A stretch of DNA of 64,000 bases from NCBI GenBank assembly GCA_013041925.1, contig JABDRB010000013.1, positions 62,001 to 126,000 on the forward strand, given 5' to 3'. The notes beneath the pieces are model-generated. The model saw nothing but the letters and a program-made list of their open reading frames with translations, ran no database searches and was not told the DNA's origin. Within the stretch, counting starts at the first letter, position 1. The number at the start of each line of letters is the position of its first letter. The position numbers and the translations under genes are program-made. This DNA is from Akkermansiaceae bacterium (GTDB taxonomy: Bacteria; Verrucomicrobiota; Verrucomicrobiia; Verrucomicrobiales; Akkermansiaceae). Below are positions 55,065 through 63,548 of this stretch, one piece after another.

Positions 55065-56105
55065 ATGAAAAAATCCACATCCTCATTCGCCGTCGGTATC
55101 ATCGTCGGCATTATCGCTACCTGCATCGCCTTCGCCATCATCTCACGAGAACAACTCATGAATGGCGGTGGTGACTCCCAAGTGCGTAAACTCAAATTTG
55201 CCCACTCGCTCCAAACCAGCCACCCAGTCCACAAAAGCATCGAATACATGGCGAAACGACTCGATGAGCTTTCCAGTGGCAACATGGAAATCATTATCTT
55301 CCCTGGCGAACAACTCGGCAACGAAACCAAATGTATCGAGCAGGTGCAGATGGGCACCCTGGCCATGACCAAGACCAGTGCCGCCCCGATGGGCAACTTC
55401 GTAAGTATGATGAAGGTGTTCAGCCTCCCCTATCTGTTTAATGATGCCGACCACTACTGGTCGGTGCTTAATGGGAAGATTGGTGCTGACATGCTTCAGA
55501 GCCTATCGCTCCGTGACGACGGCCAACAAAGCGGCCTCATCGGACTGGGATACTTCGATTCAGGAAGCCGTAATTTTTATTCCAAGAGCCCCATCCTCGG
55601 ACTCGACGACATCAGCGGTAAAAAATTCCGCGTGATGAAAGACCCCGTGGCCATGGATCTCGTCCAAGCACTGGGCGGATCCCCGACCCCGATCCCCTTC
55701 GGCGAACTCTACACAGCCCTCAAACAAGGAGTGGTCGACGGAGCCGAAAACAACCCGCCAAGCATCCTTTCATCCAAGCATTACGAGATCTGTAAACACC
55801 TCACGCTCGACGCCCATTCACGCATCCCCGACATCATCATCATCAGTGATAAGATGTGGAACGGACTCAAGGAGCACGAGCAGGTATGGCTTAAACAAGC
55901 GATGAAAGAGGCCACCGAATACCAACGCAAACTCTGGATCGAGGCCACCTCCGATGCGCTTGATCAAATCAAAGCCTCAGGTGTCACCGTCCATCAAGTG
56001 GACACGACCCCATTCCGTCATGCCGTCCAACCTGTCGTTGATAAATATGCCACCGGCGCCATCAAAGACGTTTACGACCAGATCCAGGCCGCCGGCCAAA
56101 AGTAA
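55065..56105 (+). CDS. dctP: TRAP transporter substrate-binding protein DctP
   Basis: A 346-residue periplasmic binding protein with an N-terminal membrane or signal segment (about 8-27). The DctP family marks are FPGEQLGNE, an Arg in GKKFRVMKD that clamps the carboxylate of the substrate, and G-V-V-D-G-A-E-N-N-P. It binds an organic acid such as a sugar acid, sialic acid or dicarboxylate for the two membrane subunits that follow. It is the first gene of the TRAP operon. Confidence 0.93.
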   Translation: MKKSTSSFAVGIIVGIIATCIAFAIISREQLMNGGGDSQVRKLKFAHSLQTSHPVHKSIEYMAKRLDELSSGNMEIIIFPGEQLGNETKCIEQVQMGTLAMTKTSAAPMGNFVSMMKVFSLPYLFNDADHYWSVLNGKIGADMLQSLSLRDDGQQSGLIGLGYFDSGSRNFYSKSPILGLDDISGKKFRVMKDPVAMDLVQALGGSPTPIPFGELYTALKQGVVDGAENNPPSILSSKHYEICKHLTLDAHSRIPDIIIISDKMWNGLKEHEQVWLKQAMKEATEYQRKLWIEATSDALDQIKASGVTVHQVDTTPFRHAVQPVVDKYATGAIKDVYDQIQAAGQK

Positions 56106-56131
56106 CCCCCCCCTTTCACCCTTGCTTGATT

Positions 56132-56637
56132 ATGCGTGCGCTGAACCGACTCCTCCATCAGGTGCTTACCTGGTTTTCCATTCTTGTTTTTATCATCCTG
56201 ATCTTCGATGTCGTCATCGGTGTGGGATCTCGTTACATCTTCGGTAATCAGGTGCGCTGGACCGAAGAACTCGCGACCTTCCTGCTCGTCTGGCTCGTCT
56301 TTTGCGGAGCCGCGATCGCTTACCGTGACAAAGCCCATCTAGGGATCGATCTATTTGTCCAGAGCCTCCACCCAGAGGCACGCAAGATCGCAAGGATGCT
56401 CACCCATGTCATCATCCTTGCCTTCACCCTCGCCGTGATGGTCTGGGGGGGAGCCCAACTGACTATCGAGCGGATGGAGTCTGGTCAGATGATCTCAACC
56501 TTAGGCATCCACAAGGCGTGGCTCTACCTCTCCATCCCCTTTAACGGGCTGTTTATCGCTCTCTTTAATATCGATCAAATGATAGAAACCTTGCAAAACG
56601 CGGACATCGAATCTCACGACGAAGGGAGCTCGATCTA

Positions 56638-56638
<1 letters not shown>
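56132..56638 (+). CDS. dctQ: TRAP transporter small membrane subunit DctQ
   Basis: A 168-residue protein with four membrane helices and the DctQ motif R-Y-I-F-G...W-T-E-E-L-A-T-F-L-L-V-W. It joins DctM to form the Na+-driven carrier. I choose ATG 56132 over TTG 56126. Its TAA stop overlaps the dctM ATG (TAATG). Confidence 0.93.
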
Positions 56639-57927
<1,289 letters not shown>

Positions 57928-59073: not shown

Positions 59074-59619
59074 TTAGCCAATGACACTCTGCTTGAGAAT
59101 GCCGACGTATGGGAGGTTACGATATCGCCCACGGTAGTCGAGACCGTAACCCACGACAAATTCATCACCGATCACAAATCCCGTGTAGTCGGCGGCCATT
59201 ACTTCTTCCCTCGGGATGTCTTTGGCTAATAAAACGCAGGTTTTCACCTCGGCCGCCCCCTGCTGCTTGAGTTTCTCCATAACGGCATCCAACGTCCGCC
59301 CCGTATCAAGGATATCATCCAGAATGAGGACATGACGCCCAGCCACGTCCGGCAGGGTATGATCGAGAAACGACACCACACCACTGCTTTCCGTCCCGCC
59401 GTGGTAGCTGGCAACATTCAAACACTCGATCTCCATGGAAAGCGGCACCCGGCGTAGTAAATCCGCCATAAAAAGAACTGCTCCTTTAAGCAAAGCCACC
59501 ACCACCATCGACTCCCCTTCAAAATCCGCCATCACTTTCTCCGCCAACACATCGAGACGCTTTTTAATCACCTCCTCGTCGATCAATACTTTTTCGATAT
59601 CCTGATGCATGTGCCCCAT
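59074..59619 (-). CDS. hpt: hypoxanthine phosphoribosyltransferase
   Basis: A 181-residue enzyme that salvages hypoxanthine and guanine to IMP and GMP. The PRPP-binding motif reads LILDDILDTGRTL, and the substrate loop V-V-A-L-L-K-G-A and C-terminal F-V-I-G-D-E-F-V-V-G-Y-G-L-D-Y are conserved. It is followed in the same direction by the LOG-like gene. It diverges from the M20 peptidase gene. Confidence 0.93.
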   Translation of the reverse strand: MGHMHQDIEKVLIDEEVIKKRLDVLAEKVMADFEGESMVVVALLKGAVLFMADLLRRVPLSMEIECLNVASYHGGTESSGVVSFLDHTLPDVAGRHVLILDDILDTGRTLDAVMEKLKQQGAAEVKTCVLLAKDIPREEVMAADYTGFVIGDEFVVGYGLDYRGRYRNLPYVGILKQSVIG

Positions 59620-59674
59620 CTAAGACCAAAGCCCGAAACACAAAAAGGTAAATATCCCTGTGATCGTCATCAGC

Positions 59675-59695
59675 ATTTAGTATTTAGTATTTAGA
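59675..59695 (+). repeat. 7-bp tandem repeat upstream of the M20 peptidase
   Basis: ATTTAGT, ATTTAGT, ATTTAGA in tandem between divergent hpt and the peptidase, AT-rich and near the peptidase start (59717). Confidence 0.6.
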
Positions 59696-59716
59696 TTTTC
59701 ACGCTTAAACTCCCGC

Positions 59717-60859
59717 ATGCCCAACGACGTCACCTCCCTGCTCCAGTCCCTGATCCGCATCCCCAGTGTGAATCCCGACTATGCCCCTGGCACCGATCAG
59801 ACCGGCGAGGCGGCGATGGCCGACTACGTCCAGCGCTACTTGGAAAAGATCGGGTTTGCGGTTACTCAGGAAGAAATCCTCCCCGGACGCCCTAATGTCA
59901 TGGCACGCGCGCCCTTTGAGGGAACGGGCCCCGACCTCCGGCCACGCATCCTGTTCGGGCCGCATCTTGATACCGTCACGATCATCGGCATGACCATCGA
60001 TCCCTTCGGAGGAGACATTTCCGATGGCAAAATTCATGGCCGTGGCGCCAGTGACACCAAGGGCCCGATGGCCGCCATGCTCCAGGCCCTGAGCCACTGC
60101 CGTGAGCTCCTCGCCACCCTGCCAGTGGCCGTCGACTTCGTCGGCTTCATGGGCGAAGAGGCATCTCAGCATGGATCAAAACACTTCGCCAAGCACCATG
60201 CCCATGAATATGCGTTTGCCCTCGTCGGCGAACCCACGTCACTCAACATCGTCCACGTCACCAAAGGCTCACTCTGGGCAACACTCACCACCACCGGCAA
60301 GGCCGCTCACGCCTCCCAACCCGAGACGGGTGAAAATGCCATCCTCAAGCTGACCCGGGCACTCGACCTCATGGACCAACACCTCGTTGCCAAACTCGCC
60401 TCCTACCAACACCCGGTGCTTGATCGAACCACCCTCAACATCGCCACCATCAAGGGAGGAACCCTCGCTAATATCGTCCCCGACCACGCCACGGCTCAGA
60501 TCGATATCCGCACCACCCCATCCATCTATCAGGCAGGCGGCGCATTGTCCGTGCTGGAAAAATTCATCTCCGACCACCATCTCCCCGTCTGCATCGAAAA
60601 ATCACATGAAAACCCGCCGATGGAAACCGCCGCAGACAACCCGTGGATTCAACAGATGCAATCAGCCAACCCCACATCAAAACCAGTAGGTGCCCCATGG
60701 TTTTCAGACGCCGCCCACCTCACCGCCGCGGGCGTCCCGTCAGTTTGCATCGGTCCGGGCGGGATCGAGCAAGCCCACACCAAAGACGAATTCATCCAAA
60801 TTGACGACCTCGAATCTGGCGTCGATCATTTCGAACGTTTCATCAGGTCGCTTGCTTAA
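59717..60859 (+). CDS. M20-family metallopeptidase (ArgE/DapE-like deacylase)
   Basis: A 380-residue zinc hydrolase. It has the first metal His in GPHLDTV, the bridging Asp in GRGASDTKGPMAAML, the catalytic Glu/metal Glu in FMGEEAS and a dimerisation lid domain with G-K-A-A-H-A-S-Q-P. The final ligand His lies near the C-terminus (EQAHTKDEFI). Relatives deacylate N-acetylornithine, succinyl-diaminopimelate or small peptides; the substrate here is not decided. Confidence 0.9.
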   Translation: MPNDVTSLLQSLIRIPSVNPDYAPGTDQTGEAAMADYVQRYLEKIGFAVTQEEILPGRPNVMARAPFEGTGPDLRPRILFGPHLDTVTIIGMTIDPFGGDISDGKIHGRGASDTKGPMAAMLQALSHCRELLATLPVAVDFVGFMGEEASQHGSKHFAKHHAHEYAFALVGEPTSLNIVHVTKGSLWATLTTTGKAAHASQPETGENAILKLTRALDLMDQHLVAKLASYQHPVLDRTTLNIATIKGGTLANIVPDHATAQIDIRTTPSIYQAGGALSVLEKFISDHHLPVCIEKSHENPPMETAADNPWIQQMQSANPTSKPVGAPWFSDAAHLTAAGVPSVCIGPGGIEQAHTKDEFIQIDDLESGVDHFERFIRSLA

Positions 60860-60869
60860 AAGACACCCC

Positions 60870-61208
60870 CTAACGTTTCTTCTTTCTCTTCCCCCGCTGA
60901 GCTTCACGCTGTTGGTGGTTTTTTTCCTGTTGGCGAAAGACAGGAAGGAGTTGATGTTCCATCCAAGCAAAGGCTTCATCAAGGCCTGACTCCTCATAGA
61001 TGCGACCAATCAGGGCCTCCACCGAGGTGGCATTGCCAATGTTACGAAGGAAATCGTTCGAGGTGCAACGGACAAACATTTCGCCATCCATCCGCCCTTG
61101 CTCATTGAGGATAAGTTTGCGCATGTAGAGGGCGAGCACGGCATCGCCGACCCAGGCTTCCTCACGTTCCTGCATCAGGTCTTTATCCAATTTTTTAGGG
61201 GCGGCCAT
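60870..61208 (-). CDS. mini-RNase III-like protein
   Basis: A 112-residue protein with the RNase III helix D-A-V-L-A-L-Y-M-R and the following F-V-R-C-T-S-N...A-T-S-V-E-A-L-I-G segment. No double-strand RNA-binding domain follows; the C-terminus is a basic tail (GKRKKKR). MrnC-type enzymes trim 23S rRNA precursors. The GGAG upstream of the ATG supports this start. It converges on the M20 gene. Confidence 0.68.
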   Translation of the reverse strand: MAAPKKLDKDLMQEREEAWVGDAVLALYMRKLILNEQGRMDGEMFVRCTSNDFLRNIGNATSVEALIGRIYEESGLDEAFAWMEHQLLPVFRQQEKNHQQREAQRGKRKKKR

Positions 61209-61317: not shown

Positions 61318-61890
61318 TCATTCTGACTTCTCCATCTCCGCCCTCAGGGCAGACTCTGACTCGGCATCCCAGTAACCACTCCCGAGCTCCATAAAAACAG
61401 AGGAATAGGGAAGAGCCGTCCGGGTCTTAATCACCAGCACGCGGTAGGCCTTACTGGTATCATTGAGCATGCGCATCAACATCGTATTATCGAGACGTAC
61501 GACCTCACGACCATGCAGTGCCTCGTTCAACTCTTTTTGGTAGTTCTTAATGCCCGGAGCATAGTCGTAGGACACATGATCAATCTCAGAGGTCGCGTAA
61601 ATACGCGGTTTGACGTGATGTTTTTCCTCGATGAGTTGCTCGACGCCATCAAGCACATCGGGAATGTCGCCATCGATCCGAATCACCCGAAGGCCTCGAC
61701 GGCTTTGAATCGGAAATGCCGCTTCAGCGATGACAATCCAGTTGCGCGCGCCCAGATAACCCAACTCATTCCGCAGGGAGCCCAGCCATGGTTGATACGT
61801 CTGCGCACTGTCACCACAGCCTGCAATCATGGTGAACAGGAAAAGCGCAGCAAGTTGGGGGAATCGGTTCAGTCGGAGAAGATGCAGCAT
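61318..61890 (-). CDS. lipoprotein with RbsD/FucU-like fold
   Basis: A 190-residue protein. The signal peptide ends in a canonical lipobox I-A-G-C (FTMIAGCGDS, residue about 25). The mature part follows the RbsD/FucU pattern: L-G-A-R-N-W-I-V-I-A-E-A-A-F-P (cf. LGHxDxIVIADAxFP), a mid segment with V-R-L-D, then V-I-K-T-R-T-A-L-P-Y-S-S-V-F-M-E-L-G-S-G near the end. The catalytic His of the GH-D motif is replaced by Ala. The known enzymes are cytosolic pyranases or mutarotases. The start at 61890 is set by the signal peptide. Confidence 0.55.
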   Translation of the reverse strand: MLHLLRLNRFPQLAALFLFTMIAGCGDSAQTYQPWLGSLRNELGYLGARNWIVIAEAAFPIQSRRGLRVIRIDGDIPDVLDGVEQLIEEKHHVKPRIYATSEIDHVSYDYAPGIKNYQKELNEALHGREVVRLDNTMLMRMLNDTSKAYRVLVIKTRTALPYSSVFMELGSGYWDAESESALRAEMEKSE

Positions 61891-62021: not shown

Positions 62022-63548
62022 CTACATCAACTGAGCCCCAGCTTCCGCCAGCGGGCTTCGTTCACCGCGTGAGAGCGCAACATGACTCGCAAAGGGCTGA
62101 CCTTTAAGCCGATTCCGGGTAAAAACAAGTCCATTGCTTCGGCTATCGACGTATGGATTATCAATCTGTGCCGGGTCACCTACAAGCACGAGCTTGGAGC
62201 CACGTGACATACGCGTCACTACCGTTTTGGCTTCCTGAGGTGTCAACTGCTGCGCTTCATCGAGGATGAAGAAGCGGTTCGGGATCGACCGTCCACGGAT
62301 GTAACAAAGTGCCTCGATCTCAATGACGCCACGTTCGATAAGGTCATCATACGGTTTACTGACCGACTCGGCGACGCTCTCTTTTTTTTGTTTCCTCCGT
62401 GGCCCTTGCTGGGTGACTGGCTGCATCAGCAGGTCAAGCGCATCATAGATCGGCTGCAGCCATGGTTTCATCTTATCATCGAGAGATCCTGGCAAGAAAC
62501 CGAGCTGATCCCCCATAGAAATGACGGGCCGACTGATGGTCAGTCCGTTGTAGCGTCGGTTAAACATTTCGTGCAGTCCAGCGGCGACGGCCACCAGTGT
62601 TTTTCCTGTTCCGGCCTGACCGTAACAAGTGACCAAAGAGATATCAGGGTTGAGCAGGGCATCGATAAGGCATTTCTGGCCAAGATTCAAGGGTTTGAGA
62701 TGATTCCCATCGGGGATACGCAGAACCTCAGGGATCTGCAGCCTGACAAAAATACCATTGGCATCGAGACGCGCCGGCATCGTTTGTTTGTCACCCGCCT
62801 TAAGTAACACATACTGGTTCAAAATGACCTCTTTGCGCCGCGGATGCTCCATTTCAAGCTCCCCTGAACTCGCAAAACGCTGAAGTTCAGCGGGGTCAAC
62901 ATCCACACAATACATGTCATAACTACTCACCTCCGTGGGATCGACTTTATCATTCAGGTAGTCCTGACAATCGATCCCAACCGCGCGTGCCTTAAGTTGC
63001 ATGTTGAGGTCCTTGGTCACCAAAACAACAGGCGCGTCGTTGTGCTCCATGAGCAAAACCGTTGCGGCAAGAATCCGATGATCCACACGCTCGCGATCGG
63101 GAAACACACGCAGAAACTGACCCAGCTCCGCCGAGTTATTCTCACAAAAGTCAGGGTCATAAATCACCAGTCGGATCGTCCCACCCCCATCGGTAGGGAC
63201 ACCGGATGTCACCGCATCACCCGATGCAAACATCTCAATGAGCTTCCGGTGAACTTGACGGGCATTGGCGCCGCGCTCACTTTGCTCACCCTTAAATTTA
63301 TCAAGTTCGGCAAGCACATCCACAGGGATACAGAGGTGATTGTCTTTAAACCGATTCAAACACCCTGGATCGTGCAAAAGCACATTGGTATCAAGGACGT
63401 AGTTTTTAACGACTCCCGAAGGTGCTTGCAGGCCAAATTCCTGGATTCGAGACCTTCTCATACCACGGGCTTTACTGCCGTTAGTGGCTGCTCCAGATTG
63501 ACTTTCCGCGATCGTGTCGGCTTGTTCAGAGTGCTTGGGATGATTCAT
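62022..63548 (-). CDS. PhoH2-type protein (PIN domain plus PhoH ATPase)
   Basis: A 508-residue protein. The N-terminal PIN nuclease domain has acidic D-T-N-V-L-L-H-D and the following V-L-A-E-L-D-K-F. The PhoH ATPase domain has Walker A GQAGTGKT and Walker B ILDEAQQLT. The combination is known as PhoH2, an RNA helicase/RNase of the toxin-like class, here without an obvious antitoxin gene. It is upstream of the RbsD-like lipoprotein. Confidence 0.92.
   Translation of the reverse strand: MNHPKHSEQADTIAESQSGAATNGSKARGMRRSRIQEFGLQAPSGVVKNYVLDTNVLLHDPGCLNRFKDNHLCIPVDVLAELDKFKGEQSERGANARQVHRKLIEMFASGDAVTSGVPTDGGGTIRLVIYDPDFCENNSAELGQFLRVFPDRERVDHRILAATVLLMEHNDAPVVLVTKDLNMQLKARAVGIDCQDYLNDKVDPTEVSSYDMYCVDVDPAELQRFASSGELEMEHPRRKEVILNQYVLLKAGDKQTMPARLDANGIFVRLQIPEVLRIPDGNHLKPLNLGQKCLIDALLNPDISLVTCYGQAGTGKTLVAVAAGLHEMFNRRYNGLTISRPVISMGDQLGFLPGSLDDKMKPWLQPIYDALDLLMQPVTQQGPRRKQKKESVAESVSKPYDDLIERGVIEIEALCYIRGRSIPNRFFILDEAQQLTPQEAKTVVTRMSRGSKLVLVGDPAQIDNPYVDSRSNGLVFTRNRLKGQPFASHVALSRGERSPLAEAGAQLM

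Follow-up and report, generated by a model that had tools for sequence, protein, structure and literature searches.

The stretch of DNA analysed here (the window, 64,000 nucleotides of an Akkermansiaceae genome) carries near its end an open reading frame on the reverse strand, with an ATG at 61890, the last codon at 61321–61323 and the stop codon at 61318–61320 (table 1). We are highly confident that its product combines the RbsD/FucU fold with a lipidation signal; export, lipidation and a membrane location are predicted for it from its lipobox.

Table 1. Features of the lipoprotein gene, its product and its two neighbours in the window.
Feature	Position	Strand	Basis
RNase III-like protein, 112 aa, directly downstream	60870–61208	−	Ribonuclease_3 E 3.4e-4, below cut-off
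CDS, RbsD/FucU-fold lipoprotein, 190 aa (stop included in the positions)	61318–61890	−	ORF, Pfam, family range, predicted fold
Predicted lipoprotein signal peptide, residues 1–24	61819–61890	−	hydrophobic stretch, then I-A-G-C; pattern kept across the family
Lipobox Cys25, predicted lipidated residue	61816–61818	−	Cys in 58/58 aligned members
RbsD/FucU-fold domain, residues about 33–173 (~140 residues)	61372–61794	−	VIA ranges
Ala48, at the RbsD/FucU GH-D histidine position	61747–61749	−	alignment
Glu56, at the RbsD/FucU Asp position	61723–61725	−	alignment
Asn135, at the His position of the sister-branch LPHEE motif	61486–61488	−	alignment
Tyr162, at the RbsD/FucU YAN/YGN Tyr position	61405–61407	−	alignment
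PIN-PhoH-like protein, directly upstream	62022–63548	−	PhoH E 1.6e-49, PIN_4 E 2.8e-29

The canonical lipobox read by a first-pass annotation made from the letters alone (I-A-G-C, with Cys25 behind a hydrophobic stretch) proved to be a constant of the family, the cysteine being found in all 58 aligned lipoproteins, at residue 15–36. It is preceded by Gly in 48 of them and by Ser in the other 10, and a stricter pattern at position −3 is also fitted by 48 of the 58. In the lipoproteins, the best 12-residue hydropathy before the cysteine goes down to 1.36, around a median of 2.34; the first 20 residues of canonical RbsD/FucU controls give 0.82–1.67, overlapping the lowest lipoprotein value, and our export call combines hydropathy with the pattern and does not come from a trained predictor. 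None of the 58 lipoproteins has Asp after the cysteine, which by the rule established in E. coli, one that may not hold in this host, is the mark of a destination in the outer membrane. Five lipoproteins from genus g3, taken as Akkermansia (L028, L031, L032, L090 and L094), bear a proline-rich C-terminal extension of some 60–90 residues that is missing from most other members.

The RNase III-like gene lies on the same strand within 800 bp of the lipoprotein gene in 104 of 110 stretches compared; for PhoH the count is 48 and for a nuoC-like gene 10, these stretches including some genomes more than once and 80 named loci not checked residue by residue. All 11 family members whose genomes gave no lipoprotein match contain the RNase III-like gene too, two lipoprotein-bearing genomes serving as controls. 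Ten of these 11 belong to genus g3, and in nine of the ten (L293–L296, L298–L302) only 41–132 bp separate the end of a nuoC-like ORF, recognized by eye, from the RNase III-like match that follows, so that the lipoprotein gene is cleanly absent. Because it follows directly upon the nuoC-like gene in such genomes, the RNase III-like gene does not need the lipoprotein. We regard the RNase III-like and PhoH genes as old company of a gene that can be absent, and not as evidence of its function. Further along the window, the ORF list suggests by eye a TRAP-type transporter gene set at 55065–57927 and, nearer to the lipoprotein gene, hypoxanthine phosphoribosyltransferase-like and M20 peptidase-like genes at 59074–60859.

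A role of the lipoprotein in defence or in phages was considered and dropped, with no match to support it: no relative of the window protein or of the sister alignment described below was confirmed in viral contigs, the RbsD-like protein of Phocaeicola (see below) matched nothing in phage records, and PADLOC gave no defence families at E≤1.

Fold and distribution of the lipoprotein

The resemblance to RbsD and FucU exceeds what chance would give. The Pfam family RbsD_FucU (PF05025) matches residues 41–170 of the window protein at E 7.3e-5 and 23.7 bits, the gathering cut-off being 25, which is exceeded by some lipoprotein relatives (36.1 bits in G024, 29.2 bits in G037), and the NCBIfam model for D-ribose pyranase gives 18.5 bits, the cut-off there being 93. 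PF05025 is matched at E≤1 by 45 of 51 aligned members (best E 1.2e-8); Nitrate_red_del, matched at the same threshold by 12 of the 51 (best 0.0021), was taken as noise. Against the PDB, the match by sequence alone is weak: the best one of the single window protein has an E-value of 0.057 and that of the profile 0.0047, with RbsD/FucU proteins making up seven of the nine sequences at E≤10.

The predicted structure points to the same family. The alignment used (A1) comprises 51 of 53 rows, with the window protein in place of its own copy (L001), and leaves out L005, which has no start codon on its contig, and L010, which is close to L009. AlphaFold2 with this alignment gave a monomer model of the window protein with a pLDDT of 92.2 and a pTM of 0.82. 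With this model, Foldseek retrieved 21 PDB chains at E≤0.001, every one of which belongs to the RbsD/FucU family; Atu2016, titled a putative sugar-binding protein, closes the list. In the VIA comparison, nine RbsD/FucU entries reached Z 12.4–14.4 (rmsd 2.5–3.9, 122–133 residues aligned, starting at residue 28–34 and ending at 171–173 of the window protein), and the next fold only 4.2, so that the unrelated fold that could have undone the original reading did not occur. The motif order on which that reading was based likewise holds up; the segment LGARNWIVIAEAAFP of the window protein aligns with MGHGDEIVLADANYP of the FucU structure 4a34. The protein is thus, by its modelled fold, a member of the RbsD/FucU superfamily. 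It should not be filed as an RbsD/FucU mutarotase, because two hallmarks of these enzymes that we tested, the GH-D histidine and the cytosolic location, are both lacking, the second to judge by the pattern of signal peptide and lipobox.

We searched 98 genomes of relatives and found a match in 53 of them, namely in 52 of the 60 that belong to its own family (taken as Akkermansiaceae) and in one of the 38 from the rest of the order; the latter, L053, is of the sister type. A species collection yielded 418 relatives, and the titles among the best 80 of them, which were kept, include Akkermansiaceae, Akkermansia muciniphila, Haloferula, Luteolibacter and Roseibacillus, the broader labels Verrucomicrobiaceae and Verrucomicrobia, and three cases of Prosthecobacter debontii. 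The genome of the window also encodes an ordinary RbsD/FucU protein elsewhere (G000:C19, 133 bits), so the cytosolic role is already filled there, and canonical, sister and lipoprotein types occur together in G317 and G188, both of genus g3. A Luteolibacter gene is annotated as rbsD in one publication, the relevant part of which does not use the word lipoprotein (PMC12632266). None of the titles listed from the open-licence literature has an exported RbsD/FucU protein or a GH116–RbsD gene pair as its subject, which is weak evidence of absence, and nothing was found there on RbsD together with Akkermansia or with polysaccharide utilization loci.

Pocket residues and a histidine-bearing sister branch

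To characterize the pocket, we aligned 58 lipoproteins with 23 proteins of the sister branch and with 29 canonical RbsD/FucU proteins drawn from the same class. The GH-D histidine at position 48, which we take to be catalytic in RbsD/FucU, is present in 29/29 canonical and 22/23 sister proteins and in none of the lipoproteins; its replacement by Ala, pointed out at the first pass for the window protein, is thus one instance of a family-wide loss (A 22, Y 21, S 5, F 4, N 3, V 2, D 1). Two further positions, 56 and 162, presumably hold the acid and the Tyr of the RbsD/FucU pocket. The former is Asp in all canonical (29/29) and sister (23/23) proteins and Glu (41), a conservative change, or Asp (17) in the lipoproteins, and the latter is Tyr in 58/58 lipoproteins, 22/23 sister and 29/29 canonical proteins. 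At position 135, His is found in 22 of the 23 sister proteins, in 11 of the 58 lipoproteins, where N, Q, Y, S, E or F occur as well, and in none of the 29 canonical rows in that alignment column. Nine residues are invariant in the 58 lipoproteins (Gly47, Asn50, Pro60, Glu102, Pro112, Gly113, Glu168, Trp174 and Glu179), of which position 168 varies in the sister branch. The dN/dS ratio of the domain is 0.00–0.12 in seven of ten pairs, the other three being saturated. The protein is therefore strongly selected, and what is selected for lies elsewhere than in the two histidines.

The sister proteins, a branch defined here that corresponds to no named family, came from searches with A1 in the phylum and with the sister alignment (A2) in both phylum and class. 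We fetched 24 such genes from 23 genomes, leaving out fragment matches in G571, G590 and G697 and seven weak matches of the phylum search (E 1e-4 to 9e-4, families f26 and f31). Their motifs are GHRNWIVIADAAYP, LPHE.II..LD and LPYTSVF.ELDCGYW, those shared with the lipoproteins being RNW and PYxSVF...GYW...E...R. Comparison of A1 with A2 by hhalign gave a probability of 100 and 36% identity over 173 columns, and a structure model of the sister type (pLDDT 85.9) reached Z 11.6–15.4 to RbsD/FucU entries, the next fold scoring 4.3. With start codons chosen by hand before the count, 18 of the 24 sister proteins have an export-like hydrophobic start (hydropathy 2.03 or more), a few of them with a lipobox-like Cys, and the other six look cytosolic (0.72 or less).

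A GH116 gene is directly adjacent on the same strand at 12 of the 24 sister genes, and a thirteenth case, L252, has a partial match lying some 3 kb upstream of its sister copy, a copy that is itself split between frames. By contrast, no GH116 gene was found at the lipoprotein loci in 31 stretches from 28 genomes, which are of unequal length (5 to 16.5 kb, plus the window), and PF04685 has no match in the genome of the window at E≤0.001. Within the sister branch, GH116 accompanies 13 of the 18 export-type and none of the six cytosolic-type genes (Fisher p 0.0034, counting L252 and uncorrected for relatedness); the cytosolic-looking L240 and L251, as well as L053, are hardly seen on one side because they lie near a contig end. 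Ten of the neighbouring proteins (926–1101 aa) show homology to one another in each of the 45 pairings. The four of them that were scanned all contain the two GH116 domains, PF12215 and PF04685, and the N-termini of these neighbours resemble, by eye, signals of the Sec or twin-arginine type. In L245, an alpha-L-fucosidase gene (E 3.2e-69) stands on the other side of the sister gene. Cytosolic-looking sisters stand near enzymes of a sugar type: L236:8502–10677 has, upstream, genes for a zinc alcohol dehydrogenase and an aldo/keto reductase (by Pfam), L240:664–2812 shows the same pair by eye, and in L238:8484–11664 a GHL6 glycosyl-hydrolase-like gene (by Pfam) is followed by one that by eye is alcohol dehydrogenase-like. 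L250:7961–8534 is an outlier, in which Lys takes the place of the His; it has a lipobox-like Cys, and GH116 is absent from its stretch.

Outside the phylum, the arrangement is found once more in a Phocaeicola massiliensis record (OY726067.1), the only match among 72,556 records. There, SusC-like (Plug, STN), SusD, GH116 and RbsD-like genes, unannotated, stand in a row (L303:465–8492), the last of them beginning 4 bases past the GH116 gene and encoding a His-bearing protein with a lipobox-like LPAC and a PF05025 score of 21.0 bits, under the cut-off. The record (140 kb) is labelled a plasmid and carries chromosomal-looking genes (electron-transfer flavoprotein-like, by eye). As a His-bearing branch with export signals adjoins GH116 genes, the export of an RbsD/FucU fold is apparently not a one-off.

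A tree was inferred from 110 rows with the pocket columns 48, 56 and 135 removed, omitting the fragment L251 and a canonical row that was a duplicate. The canonical (29) and sister (23) proteins each fall on one side of a branch, with SH-aLRT values of 98 and 99, and two changes of label are required to accommodate the lipoproteins; neither the basal forks nor the root are settled, and the stem to canonical RbsD/FucU measures 3.45 changes per column. Loss of the histidine in the lipoproteins is the simpler account, because the canonical and sister proteins share it. The earlier view of the window protein as a lipoprotein with a fold derived from RbsD/FucU thus stands as regards the fold and the lipidation signal, on which independent tools agree; the derivation itself is an argument from parsimony, since the long stem and the open basal forks leave lipoproteins and sisters unrooted relative to each other. 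In either case, the window lipoprotein belongs with a branch of the RbsD/FucU superfamily in which export signals are common.

Possible roles and comparison with known systems

We regard the window protein as probably a non-catalytic, sugar-binding lipoprotein, a reading to which we give about even chances. It fits the residue pattern, as the histidine is lost and the acid and Tyr are kept. The sister proteins may be exported mutarotases acting in the compartment of their partner glycosidase, where they would work, outside the cytoplasm, on the sugar freed by the GH116 enzyme. In the lipoproteins, both His positions would have drifted while the acid (Glu/Asp56), Tyr162 and the invariant set were held; their pocket would still bind a sugar or sugar-like ligand at the envelope and would no longer catalyse mutarotation of the RbsD type. 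Ligand binding, the loss of catalysis and the activity of the sister branch are all things that we infer. The genomic context of the lipoprotein, with RNase III-like and PhoH neighbours and GH116 in 0/31 stretches, lends no support to a sugar role.

Loss of the histidine does not prove loss of activity, for which Tyr or Glu could stand in. The lipoprotein would then still be a mutarotase or another sugar enzyme of the envelope, whose acid–base chemistry would fall to Glu56 and Tyr162, joined in part of the family by Tyr48 or His135. The acid and Tyr kept in 58/58 proteins, the strong purifying selection, and the presence of His135 in 11 and Tyr48 in 21 of the 58 speak for such an enzyme; yet positions 48 and 135 each vary among seven residues, and a newly acquired catalytic residue should have become fixed, so we consider this rather unlikely. 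Somewhat less probable still is that the fold has been reused in a lipoprotein that binds no small molecule and has a structural or partner-binding role, for instance as a ring on the membrane. This is consistent with the loss of the histidine in all 58 lipoproteins and with the invariant C-terminal Glu168, Trp174 and Glu179, the first of which is variable in the sisters, but the pocket residues Asp/Glu56 and Tyr162, which stay fixed, speak against it.

The constant company of the RNase III-like gene (104 of the 110 stretches) and the frequent one of PhoH (48) might suggest that the lipoprotein works with these neighbours in RNA metabolism. However, the lipobox places it outside the cytoplasm, and the RNase III-like gene directly follows the nuoC-like gene in nine of the ten lipoprotein-less genomes of genus g3, which makes such a partnership very improbable. 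That the resemblance to RbsD/FucU is due to chance, or that the ORF is not a gene, could be argued from the single sequence, which scores just under the Pfam cut-off, but the conserved family and the fold match already refute this, and we give it practically no credence.

Returning to the non-catalytic, sugar-binding lipoprotein, we may place it in a broader and distinctly more tentative scheme, possible though on the unlikely side. The RbsD/FucU superfamily would include an unrecognized branch outside the cytoplasm, in which an exported mutarotase next to GH116 (in Verrucomicrobiota and at least one Bacteroidota locus, once with SusC–SusD) turns the freed sugar into the transported or the non-inhibiting anomer, and of which the Akkermansiaceae member is now fixed as a non-catalytic sugar receptor of the envelope. 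Should this branch exist and be active, the RbsD/FucU fold would give some glycan-degrading bacteria a means, besides the unrelated NanM, of controlling sugar anomers ahead of uptake. The lipoprotein itself, which also occurs in records named Akkermansia muciniphila, would represent a conserved protein of the envelope whose fold is defined and whose pocket can be tested, and the relatives in which it was not detected offer natural comparisons.

To our knowledge, mutarotases of the RbsD/FucU fold are known only from the cytosol; RbsD and FucU form a decamer ring. With RbsD (D-ribose pyranase) and FucU (L-fucose mutarotase) of PF05025, the latter described as interconverting the anomers of L-fucose (PMC13406643), the window lipoprotein has in common the fold, the motif order G-x-x-x-x-I/V-V...D/E-x-x-x-P and the Tyr of the YxN motif. 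It differs from them in its lipobox, in lacking the GH-D histidine, in mostly having Glu for the Asp and, in 42 of the 58 lipoproteins, Ser for the Asn of YxN, and in a stretch near the C-terminus, E179..R183, to which nothing corresponds in any of the 29 canonical rows. Compared with the His-bearing branch, where His48, Asp56 and His135 are kept, the window protein has Ala, Glu and Asn. For the sister branch, and for it only, there is an analogy in NanM, a periplasmic sialic-acid anomerase with Kelch proteins named as its homologues, which has been suggested to supply the transported anomer and to lower the inhibition of sialidase (PMC8141875). NanM has another fold and acts on another sugar, and it provides a precedent for an anomerase working outside the cytoplasm.
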